From assembly GCF_022808815.1 (NCBI RefSeq), contig NZ_JAKZLC010000002.1, forward strand, positions 248,001-312,000: 64,000 nt of DNA, read 5' to 3'. The notes beneath the pieces are model-generated. The model worked only from the letters and a program-made list of their open reading frames with translations. It was not told where the DNA came from and ran no database searches. The number at the start of each line of letters is the position of its first letter. The first letter of the stretch is position 1. Shown one piece after another: positions 9,623-12,663 of the stretch. The stretch is from Geothrix paludis. Its GTDB lineage: Bacteria > Acidobacteriota > Holophagae > Holophagales > Holophagaceae. Made by a program: the position numbers and the translations under genes.

Positions 9623-10057
9623 ATGAAAGCCGTCATCCAGCGCGTGAAGCGGGCCTCGGTGCGCAGCGGAGAGCTGGAATCCGCCATCGGACCGGGCCTC
9701 CTCGTGCTCGCGGGCCTCGAGGCCAGCGACACGGAGGAGACTTGCGCCTGGGCCGCCGCCAAGATTGCCTCGCTGCGCGTCTTCGAGGACGATGCCGGAA
9801 AGATGAACCTCGGCCTCGCCGACGTGGGCGGCGAGATCCTGGCCATCAGCCAGTTCACGCTGGCGGGCAGCGTCGCGCGGGGGCGGCGCCCCTCCTTCGA
9901 TCGGGCCATGGCCCCGGACGCGGCCCGGGTGCTCTTCCGCAGGTTCCTCGACCTGCTCAAGGCCCAGCACCCCCGCGTGAAGTCCGGATTCTTCCAGGAA
10001 CACATGGAGGTGGAGCTGGTGAACGACGGGCCCGTGACCTTCATCCTCGAGCGCTGA
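9623..10057 (+). CDS. dtd: D-aminoacyl-tRNA deacylase
   Basis: Dtd hydrolyses D-amino acids (and misacylated Gly) from tRNA, protecting translation. The 144-residue length matches the family (145 in E. coli). It begins MKAVIQRVKRASV and has both active-site signatures: SQFTL (residues ~77-81, with the catalytic Thr region) and the C-terminal NDGPVTF, which corresponds to the NxGPV(T) loop. A strong GGAGGGG (9608-9614) precedes the ATG. Its last 17 bases overlap the 3' end of the convergent PAP2 gene. Confidence 0.95.
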   Translation: MKAVIQRVKRASVRSGELESAIGPGLLVLAGLEASDTEETCAWAAAKIASLRVFEDDAGKMNLGLADVGGEILAISQFTLAGSVARGRRPSFDRAMAPDAARVLFRRFLDLLKAQHPRVKSGFFQEHMEVELVNDGPVTFILER

Positions 10058-10910
10058 AGGGCCGCGCCAGCCACCGGGAGACCGGCGCCGCCAGGACGAG
10101 GGCCAGCCCCGCGAGCAGGAGGCCCGCCGCCACATCCACCACGTAGTGCACGCCGATGTAGACCGTGGCGAAGACCACGGCCAGGGCCCAGACCCAGAGC
10201 AGCGGCGCCAGGCGCGGGAAGGGTCGCGTGGCCAGCAGGGCCGGCAGCACGGAGAGGGCCGTGTGGCCACTGGGGAAGGCGTCCAGGGTGGTGGATTCGG
10301 CTCCGTGGAGGAAGGCCCGGACCGCTTGGGAGACGGCACCGCCGCCCAGCTTCGCGGCAGCCAGGGCCTCGGGCACCCGGGGGCCTTCCGCAGGCCAGAG
10401 GAAGTAGCCCAGGAAGGACAGGTAGAAGCCCAGCAAGATCCGGAAGGCCACCCGCTCAAAGCCTTCGGGGCCCAGCCGCCGCCAGGCCAGCGCCGCCACG
10501 GCGATGGGCAGGAAGTAGAAGCTGGCGTAGGCGAGGTAGATCAGATCCGTGAACGCCGCGGGCCGGCCGAAGGCGCCGTGCCAGGCCGCAGCGAGCTGGC
10601 CGAACCACCGGGCGTCGGCGGCGGCGAGCGCCGCGTCCCAGCGGTGGACGTTGACCGCCACCACCAGCGGCTGGAGCAGGAGGAACACGAGGAGGACCAC
10701 CAGGATCGGCAGGAAGTCACGCAGCACCGCGGCCGCCTTCCCCTTCACCCGGCCCACCAGCAGGACCGCCAGGAGCAGCGCCGCGAACGTGGCGGCCCGG
10801 GGAATCCCCCCGTCGGGCCGGACCAGCACGATGAGCAGCAGCAGGCCCGCCAGAACCAGGGCCGTCAGCCGCTCGGAGGGCCGCAGGGCGGCGATCGCCC
10901 TGGCGATCAT
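10041..10910 (-). CDS. PAP2-family membrane phosphatase (Aur1/Ipt1-like)
   Basis: A multi-pass inner-membrane protein of 289 residues with about six hydrophobic segments. The PAP2 active-site motifs are present: FPSGHT (near residue 215) and YIGVHYVVD (near 250), supplying the two His and the Asp of the acid-phosphatase triad. The long N-terminal membrane part and motif spacing resemble the inositolphosphotransferase branch (PAP2_3), so it may act on a phospholipid or polyprenyl phosphate headgroup. Its start overlaps the stop of the upstream acyltransferase-like gene by 4 bp (ATGA), implying coupled translation and a shared pathway. Substrate cannot be deduced. Confidence 0.85.
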   Translation of the reverse strand: MIARAIAALRPSERLTALVLAGLLLLIVLVRPDGGIPRAATFAALLLAVLLVGRVKGKAAAVLRDFLPILVVLLVFLLLQPLVVAVNVHRWDAALAAADARWFGQLAAAWHGAFGRPAAFTDLIYLAYASFYFLPIAVAALAWRRLGPEGFERVAFRILLGFYLSFLGYFLWPAEGPRVPEALAAAKLGGGAVSQAVRAFLHGAESTTLDAFPSGHTALSVLPALLATRPFPRLAPLLWVWALAVVFATVYIGVHYVVDVAAGLLLAGLALVLAAPVSRWLARPFSARG

Positions 10911-11785
10911 GGTTCCGGTGCCCCCGGATCCACGCCCGACCAGACGGGCGTCCCCTCCGGCGAGCCCAGCCAGCGGGCGGGGTCCTCGAGGATCTTCTGC
11001 ACCAGGGCCAGGGAACGGGCGCAGGAGAAGGCGTCGTCGATGCGCTCGTCGAAGGTCCAGCGCACGGACAGCGCCTCCTCGGAGGTCGCGCCATCGCGGC
11101 CGGCGAAGACCGCGCGCCGGGGGGCCGACACGGCCCCGAAGATGGAGACGGTGCCGTATTCATAAAGATGGTGGAACACGTCGGAGACGCCCACGGAACC
11201 CAGGTTGGCGAGGAAGATCGTCGCGAACATCGGGTCATCCCGGATCATGAAGCCCGGGAAGAGGTTCCAGCGGTCCAGCCCCCGCGCGAGGGCCACCAGC
11301 CCGCGCACCAGCGGGCCGGGAAGCCGCATGACCAGCGCCACCTCCTTGTCCACGGCGCAGTCCTTCTCCCGGGCCTCGTCCACCCGCGTCGAGATGCGCC
11401 GGGAGAAGTCCGGAAAGCTCTCGCCCTTGGGGCACGCCAGCTTCACCGTGACATCGGCCCCGTCATCCGTGAACTCCCGCTTGGCCACGAAGGAGATGGA
11501 CACGCCCCGGCGCTGGTAGGTCCGCCCGCCCGAGACGAACCGGTTCAGGCGCGGGCGCGTCTCGAGCGCCACCGCGGTGGCGTAAGCCACCAGATGGAAG
11601 AGCGTGGCGCGGGGGTGATGGACGCGGTTGTAGGCCTTGAGCCAGACGCGCGCGGCCGCGATGCGGTACACGGACTCCTGGTAGACGCAGCTCTCGTTCC
11701 GGCCTCGCATGAGGTAGGGCATGATGCGCCGCACGGGATCCTCGCCGCGGATCAGATCACCATCGGGACGCGAGAAGAGGGGCAT
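10907..11785 (-). CDS. CAT/E2-like acyltransferase fold protein lacking the catalytic His
   Basis: A 292-residue protein that resembles the catalytic domain of 2-oxoacid dehydrogenase E2 subunits and chloramphenicol acetyltransferase, with no lipoyl or subunit-binding domain. Alignable features include the segments NRVHHPRATLFHLVAYATA and LNRFVSGGRTYQRRGVSIS. The C-terminal region RWTFDERIDDAF lies at the place of the E2 motif SFDHRVIDG. There the catalytic His is replaced by Glu and the Gly by Ala (near residue 241), so classical acyl transfer by this motif is unlikely. It is translationally coupled to the PAP2 gene. It may bind acyl-CoA or a lipid without catalysis, or use a different chemistry. 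Confidence 0.7.
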   Translation of the reverse strand: MPLFSRPDGDLIRGEDPVRRIMPYLMRGRNESCVYQESVYRIAAARVWLKAYNRVHHPRATLFHLVAYATAVALETRPRLNRFVSGGRTYQRRGVSISFVAKREFTDDGADVTVKLACPKGESFPDFSRRISTRVDEAREKDCAVDKEVALVMRLPGPLVRGLVALARGLDRWNLFPGFMIRDDPMFATIFLANLGSVGVSDVFHHLYEYGTVSIFGAVSAPRRAVFAGRDGATSEEALSVRWTFDERIDDAFSCARSLALVQKILEDPARWLGSPEGTPVWSGVDPGAPEP

Positions 11786-11898: not shown

Positions 11899-12663
11899 AT
11901 GCTGACGCCTTTCGCACGCTTAAGCCTGCCTGTTTCTGGCCTGCCCATTTCCAGTGTGCTTGGCGCGGTCCTCCTCCTGTCCGGGGCTCCAGCCGCCGCC
12001 CAGCAGGCAACGCCCTGGACCTGGACCGCCTACCTCCAGCAGAGCTGGCCCAAGCAGACGGAGACCAACCGCCAGATCAAGGACATCAACGCGACCACGG
12101 GCCAGTCGTTCAAGACCTGGGACGACGTCGCCAACCTCAACCTGGGCCTGCAGGTCTTCCGGGACCTGGATCCCCGCTGGAAGGTGGGGCTCGAGCTGGA
12201 CTACTCCCGGGGCAAGATCGACGGCTCGGCGACCGTGGACACGCCCGCCGGCCCCGCCACCCTCGCCTTCGAGCAGAAGTACACGGTCTACGCCGACCTT
12301 CTCGTCCTCGCCCAGTTCCGTCCCCTGGGCGCGGACCGGCGCGTGATCCCCTTCCTCCAGGGCGGCCTGGGCGTGGCCTACGAGAAGGACCGCACCCTCC
12401 TGACGCTGCGCAACCCCTACCTCGACGAAACCCTGCTCCACGTGGACAACGACGGCTGGTTCCCCATGCTCACGGTGGGCGTGGGCGTGGATGTGTACTT
12501 CTCGGAGAAGCGCACCTGGTACGCGGAGGCCGGTGTCAGCTACTCCTGGGCCCGCCTCAAGCACGACGTCCCCGCCAGCGGCTCCCTGGCCCCACCCACG
12601 GTCACCGCCGACACCGACTCCACGGGCCCCAATGTGTGGCTGGGCATCGGGCGGCGGTTCTAG
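11899..12663 (+). CDS. Small outer-membrane beta-barrel protein
   Basis: A 254-residue exported protein with a signal peptide ending near residue 35 (GAPAAAQQ). The mature part is rich in alternating hydrophobic strands and aromatic residues and ends in a C-terminal Phe (GIGRRF), the usual signal for BAM-dependent insertion. The pattern resembles OmpA/OmpW-type eight-stranded barrels (for example FLQGGLGVAYEKDRTL and WYAEAGVSYSWARL). No specific family is recognised and no ligand can be proposed. It has its own promoter and is followed by a hairpin, so it is probably monocistronic. Confidence 0.75.
   Translation: MLTPFARLSLPVSGLPISSVLGAVLLLSGAPAAAQQATPWTWTAYLQQSWPKQTETNRQIKDINATTGQSFKTWDDVANLNLGLQVFRDLDPRWKVGLELDYSRGKIDGSATVDTPAGPATLAFEQKYTVYADLLVLAQFRPLGADRRVIPFLQGGLGVAYEKDRTLLTLRNPYLDETLLHVDNDGWFPMLTVGVGVDVYFSEKRTWYAEAGVSYSWARLKHDVPASGSLAPPTVTADTDSTGPNVWLGIGRRF

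Follow-up and report, generated by a model that had tools for sequence, protein, structure and literature searches.

A conserved glutamate at the catalytic histidine position marks a family of free-standing CAT/E2-fold proteins

We describe a conserved variant of free-standing CAT/E2-fold proteins in which the histidine of the catalytic loop is replaced by glutamate. The window, that is, the whole stretch of 64,000 nucleotides analysed here, encodes one such protein of 292 amino acids at 10907..11785 on the minus strand, with an ATG start; the assignment draws on the open reading frame, the match to PF00198, the predicted fold and a family alignment. The variant is real, and the glutamate is the constant hallmark of a so far uncharacterised family, here called the Glu-type family, that extends across several bacterial groups. 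We found no earlier description of it: the titles and abstract openings listed in our literature search contain none of the Glu-type family, which is no proof of absence in print.

Textbooks identify CAT, E2 and related acyltransferases by the motif HxxxDG, and in E2 the catalytic loop reads DHRxxDG. Its counterpart in the window protein is DERIDDA (D246-E247-R248-I249-D250-D251-A252, residues 246–252; 11030..11050, minus strand). E247 (11045-11047, minus strand) aligns with the catalytic histidine of E2 by both hhalign and hmmsearch, as the initial annotation had proposed. The same strand encodes the family motif HHLYEYG (residues 205–211; 11153..11173), whose two histidines align with the TP of the E2 stretch TPIIN, and A193-N194 (11204..11209), where A193 occupies the position of the active-site Ser/Thr of E2 according to alignment and profile comparison.

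PF00198, the catalytic domain of the 2-oxoacid dehydrogenase acyltransferases, matches the protein with an E-value of 2.4e-9 (37.4 bits, cut-off 23). At E up to 1, Pfam finds nothing else on the 292 residues: no lipoyl domain, no peripheral-subunit-binding domain and no match to the CAT family PF00302. An AF2 model built from 17 sequences (the window protein and 16 close homologues) has a pLDDT of 66.1 and a pTM of 0.69, with confidence below 50 at residues 1–15, 22–32, 171–185, 194–212 (the HH segment) and 289–292. By VIA, the model matches the E2 core 3l60 with a Z-score of 18.8 (208 residues, rmsd 3.7), and the other E2 cores listed give similar values; the Z-scores for CAT III (6x7q) and for 6h60 are 15.4 and 17.1, respectively. 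Foldseek gives an E-value of 2.0e-10 to 3mae. The CAT/E2 fold assigned at the outset is thus borne out by the PF00198 match and by a predicted fold at Z of about 18 to solved E2 cores.

Profile–profile comparison with 30 E2 rows, at 98% probability, puts E247, D251 and A252 opposite the catalytic His, the Asp and the Gly, respectively, and HH opposite the TP of TPIIN; since the E2 rows were selected by their HR..DG motif, this comparison does not test how often E2 retains the histidine. A comparison with eight CAT rows from the phylum of G302, a Myxococcales-titled genome discussed below, reaches 15% probability (E 0.0017) and is unreliable in the HH stretch, so we place HH by the E2 comparison alone.

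Set beside the catalytic core of E2 (PF00198), the window protein shares the fold and the positions of D246, R248, D251, N81 and N194. It differs in being free-standing, in having Glu for His and HH for TP, and in about 37 additional residues around 147–185, which are without an E2 counterpart and common to the His-type group described below. The PF00198 match would suit a protein that serves a 2-oxoacid dehydrogenase complex as a normal E2 subunit and carries a local mutation, but the lipoyl and peripheral-subunit-binding domains of such a subunit were not found in the 292 residues, and the same genome holds one other PF00198 protein, separate and with a longer N-terminus, that has the motif DHRIIDG. 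We rejected this explanation on these two grounds; the additional residues and the family-wide conservation of the glutamate also speak against it, and we regard it as extremely improbable.

The protein is present in 19 of the 77 genomes of the order, the window's own included, at 65–100% identity, and all 19 carry DERIDDA. A scan of genome contigs, partly overlapping with these genomes, gave 16 loci, again all with DERIDDA; eight come from Geothrix isolates (78–97% identity) and two more from Geothrix-titled MAGs. The codons of the motif vary synonymously (GAG/GAA), and dN/dS values against the five relatives L022, L023, L025, L029 and L034 are 0.10, 0.19, 0.17, 0.33 and 0.31, indicating that the E247 protein is under purifying selection. 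The His-to-Glu swap is old and maintained. The initial annotation had allowed for a mutation confined to one strain, with the normal HxxxDG motif in close homologues. The glutamate in all 19 genomes excludes this, and DERIDDA in all these close relatives together with the synonymous codon changes likewise rules out a frameshift or sequencing error.

Outside the order, a tblastn search of plasmid records revealed, at 28% identity, a protein of Vescimonas fastidiosa (Clostridia) that is listed as hypothetical and bears the motif DERICTG. An unannotated Glu-type protein, an 80% relative of the Vescimonas one, is encoded on a faecal contig (L077) that is filed as phage and possibly is not one; scans of viral contigs gave no relative. 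Searching 247 genomes from the window's phylum with the profile returned 12 strong matches, all within the window's genus, and three weak ones. One of the weak matches, L050:1504-2391 (Acidobacteriota), is another protein, with VDTRVLNA at the place of the motif and a methyltransferase-like gene adjoining; it is perhaps another degenerate E2-fold protein with a weak likeness to the Glu-type family.

In the phylum of G302, the Myxococcales-titled genome to which one of the 16 contig loci (L030) belongs, the profile matched in 116 of 146 genomes. Among the matches listed, 36 in 33 genomes are nearly full-length, with E-values of 6e-58 or better, and every one of the 36 has Glu at the His position. 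We aligned 44 Glu rows: seven of the 17 Geothrix-type loci, 35 others from the phylum of G302, the Vescimonas protein and that of the faecal contig. E247 is invariant in all 44, which answers whether the glutamate is conserved, and so are D246, R248, H205, H206, G211, R29, R92, N194, F216, P156 and P177. D251, E209 and K102 are each kept in 42 rows and R82 in 40; R82 and K102 are further charged residues specific to the family, and the columns of R82, K102, H205, H206, E209 and E247 hold other residues in the sister group and in the single E2 row. The position of the E2 Ser/Thr is occupied by Ala in 38 rows and by Thr in six. The initial annotation had also counted the motif glycine as lost. 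This is correct for the window protein, which has Ala, but it is no signature of the family: Gly ends the motif in 37 of the 44 rows, and Ala is found only in the seven Geothrix-type ones.

The nearest kin of the family, among the matches listed, is a His-type group from the same phylum (L114–L157), which we sampled as 44 of the lower profile matches; 41 were placed in a tree, and L145 (DHAFCDG), L155 and L157 (both DHRFIDG) had been left outside before this count. These proteins are free-standing, PF00198-like and similar in size to the window protein, contain the same extra stretch and can be aligned with it throughout. They differ at the active site, with DHRxxDG as their motif: the His position holds His in 40 of the 41 tree rows and Ala in one, and the H-H-x-x-E of the Glu-type family is mostly V-P-x-x-P, with V (29 rows) or one of A, L, S and P (12 rows) at the H205 position, and Pro in 40 of 41 at each of the H206 and E209 positions. 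Thr occupies the position of the E2 Ser/Thr in 36 of 41. Nearly all members of the group have an intact DHRxxDG, and most have a YVPLVPY-like stretch; L148 (DARLID, with Ala) and L145 have altered motifs, possibly separate losses.

In the tree, the Glu rows lie on one side of a branch with an SH-aLRT value of 99, and the His rows likewise on one side of another with a value of 95. This quick tree was computed with both motif stretches set to be excluded, and its only outgroup, one E2, is attached by a very long branch, a situation in which the tree program warns of long-branch joins. The window protein has the glutamate at the His position and the HH pair, and it falls on the Glu side of the branch.

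The gene directly downstream of the window's E2-like gene encodes a PAP2/PAP2_3 protein of 289 amino acids (10041..10910, minus strand; PF14378 PAP2_3, 2.8e-21; PF01569 PAP2, 1e-11). As noted at the outset, the stop codon of the E2-like gene (10907-10909) overlaps the start codon of the PAP2 gene (10908-10910), the two sharing the ATGA at 10907-10910. A PAP2 gene is directly adjacent on the same contig in 18 of the 19 genomes with the E2-like gene (E 8e-89 or better), which are not 18 independent events because the genomes are related. The exception is G061, which is without the PAP2 gene; many of the 77 genomes are incomplete assemblies. Such a PAP2 gene is missing from all 58 genomes of the order without the E2-like gene, nine of which hold a distant one (1.7e-16 to 7.1e-11).

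Counted by locus, the PAP2 gene accompanies 16 of 17 Geothrix-type loci, L032 being the one without. The same two-gene unit, with an E2-like protein 71% identical to that of the window, is found on L030, the contig of the Myxococcales-titled MAG; transfer or misbinning of a Geothrix-type contig could account for this. L078 duplicates L030 and was left out of the count. Elsewhere the pairing is rare. Only one of the 35 other loci from the phylum of G302 (L079–L113) has a PAP2 gene, and in this locus (L082) it is upstream rather than downstream and its product is 42% identical; L086 has one hit to the PAP2 motif pattern in addition. Neither of the two remaining loci (L038, L077) has one nearby. 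Because the loci were tested by phmmer, with the protein from the window as query, and by the motif pattern, these counts could miss remote PAP2 genes, and the contigs L083, L085, L103 and L111 end shortly after the Glu-type gene. PAP2 as a constant neighbour, as first suggested, therefore holds for the Geothrix type (16/17 loci, 18/19 genomes); as a partner of the whole family we reject it, given 1/35 and 0/2 loci elsewhere.

The PAP2 protein was initially taken for a lipid phosphatase. A phosphatase is plausible, and an AUR1-like phosphotransferase is another candidate: the best sequence matches among solved structures, AUR1 (E 0.0022 and 0.0035) and the LpxE phosphatase (0.0046), are nearly tied. 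It is alike to both in having them as its best PDB matches and in its PSGH and HYxxD motifs, and unlike them in that similarity to all is weak. The NCBIfam phosphatase models it matches all score below their cut-offs, the best being the undecaprenyl-diphosphatase SepP (3.2e-6). The classical PAP2 motifs are PSGH and SRx5HxxxD. PSGH and HxxxD are present in all eight aligned PAP2 proteins (that of the window, with HYxxD, and seven relatives), and the Arg of SR in the third motif is replaced by Thr in six and by Ala in two.

Given the overlap with a PAP2-superfamily gene, the two genes are probably co-transcribed, and the acceptor or product of the E2-like protein in Geothrix is probably membrane- or lipid-linked. 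The pairing points to such an acceptor in the Geothrix lineage only. On the other side of the E2-like gene, a divergent gene for a beta-barrel-like outer-membrane protein (11899..12663, plus strand; Pfam matches all below cut-off) has a similar counterpart at the same place in four of six Geothrix-type loci compared. A Lipid_desat gene, which we take to be of the CarF/PEDS1 kind, lies downstream on the same strand in L089, L090, L097 and L099, all from one branch of the family; in L090 about 880 bases separate it from the Glu-type gene.

Across the family the neighbours of the Glu-type gene vary, and the lipid link therefore rests on few branches. We compared 30 selected neighbour proteins, out of far more that flank these genes, with Pfam; ten had no match, and the names obtained were cytochrome c, PAP2, HSP70, FkbM methyltransferase, AraC-type regulator, histidine kinases, urocanase, Lar_N, Caroten_synth, Lipid_desat, methyltransferase, metallophosphatase, ABC-2 transporter and FA_desaturase. 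Neighbouring genes were called by our own procedure, which left the target gene uncalled at nine loci.

A precedent for glutamate at this site comes from CAT (PF00302), which shares the fold with the window protein and differs from it in the missing PF00302 match and the weak profile comparison. In 1994, Lewendon reportedly described, as the title has it, a general base role for a Glu that replaces His195 of CAT, the position held here by E247. For E2, the evidence is divided. According to PMC5986005, Asp374Ala and His375Ala in E. coli E2o each have 54-fold effects, and the activity left is 59% for His375Trp, 45% for Thr323Ala and 2% for His375Ala; since these mutants stay active, neither His375 nor Thr323 is strictly required in that enzyme. 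The same paper gives a decrease in kcat of about 9e5-fold for CAT His195Ala and argues that the E2o histidine is not an acid–base catalyst at all, whereas PMC8421416 assigns the histidine of E. coli E2p the role of general base and places the E2 active-site channel between two subunits, with His and Asp supplied by the neighbour. In terms of E2o numbering, the Glu-type family has kept the counterparts of Asp374, Arg376 and Asp379; those of His375 and, in most rows, Thr323 are replaced.

By analogy with these enzymes, the most likely reading, at about even odds, is that the protein is an active, free-standing acyltransferase of the E2/CAT type that uses the glutamate as its general base. Such an enzyme would form trimers as in CAT and E2, with three interface channels that acyl-CoA would enter at one end and the acceptor at the other. 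E247 of one subunit, held by D251 and D246/R248, would do the work of the usual histidine and deprotonate the acceptor (or CoA-SH), and H205-H206-x-x-E209 of the neighbouring subunit would lie on the acceptor side and help to bind or polarise the acceptor. The two histidines, which the alignment suggests may sit in the interface channel, are candidates for another His in the site. The base role of the glutamate would follow CAT, because PMC5986005 denies an acid–base role of the E2o histidine. Two features of the alignment appear to speak against an active enzyme, namely that 38 of 44 rows have Ala at the Ser/Thr position and that the Geothrix-type rows have lost the Gly as well.

The loss of the catalytic His, and in most rows of the Ser/Thr, is what a pseudoenzyme might show, and the initial annotation had favoured one by default. 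Such a protein would use the old channel to bind acyl-CoA, a lipid or another protein and would act as sensor or scaffold; in Geothrix it would do so for the PAP2 protein, and the gene overlap would speak for this. There is a precedent in E3BP (protein X), an E2-like protein that PMC10156792 calls catalytically inactive and distinguishes from E2 in animals by the missing histidine; its resemblance to the window protein extends to the Z-score of 6h60. E3BP, however, has the E2 domain layout and sits in a complex (same source), whereas the window protein is without such domains. Other points also speak against a pseudoenzyme: the glutamate is invariant instead of drifting, D246, R248 and D251 are conserved, the histidine pair is invariant, Glu at the same place in CAT was reported, by title, to work as a base, and beyond the Geothrix type no PAP2 gene was found close to the majority of family members. 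The pseudoenzyme is thus not supported as the default, and we consider it unlikely, if worth keeping in view. The invariant Glu and His pair seem to fit a selected function at the site better than decay, and binding alone could also be selected as the function of the conserved site.

Slightly less probable to us is that the active site has been rebuilt across the clade, the glutamate and the His pair of HHxYE forming a catalytic or metal centre new to this superfamily, which in Geothrix would work as a two-gene unit with the PAP2 phosphatase or phosphotransferase. Going further, the old fold might house new chemistry, with E247, H205, H206 and E209 making up a different catalytic or metal centre, for example that of a hydrolase or a metal-dependent enzyme, and no CoA acyltransferase at all. 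The family-specific charged set of R82, K102, H205, H206, E209 and E247 would agree with this, but the HH segment is modelled at a pLDDT below 50, and both the proximity of these residues and the metal are conjecture; we think it quite improbable.

Annotating Glu-type genes as E2 subunits is wrong. The natural combination of Glu and an invariant His-His motif across a clade would be nature's equivalent of the engineered CAT in which, by the title of that report, Glu replaced His195. The role of the histidine, on which PMC5986005 and PMC8421416 disagree, would be testable in proteins that evolved without it.
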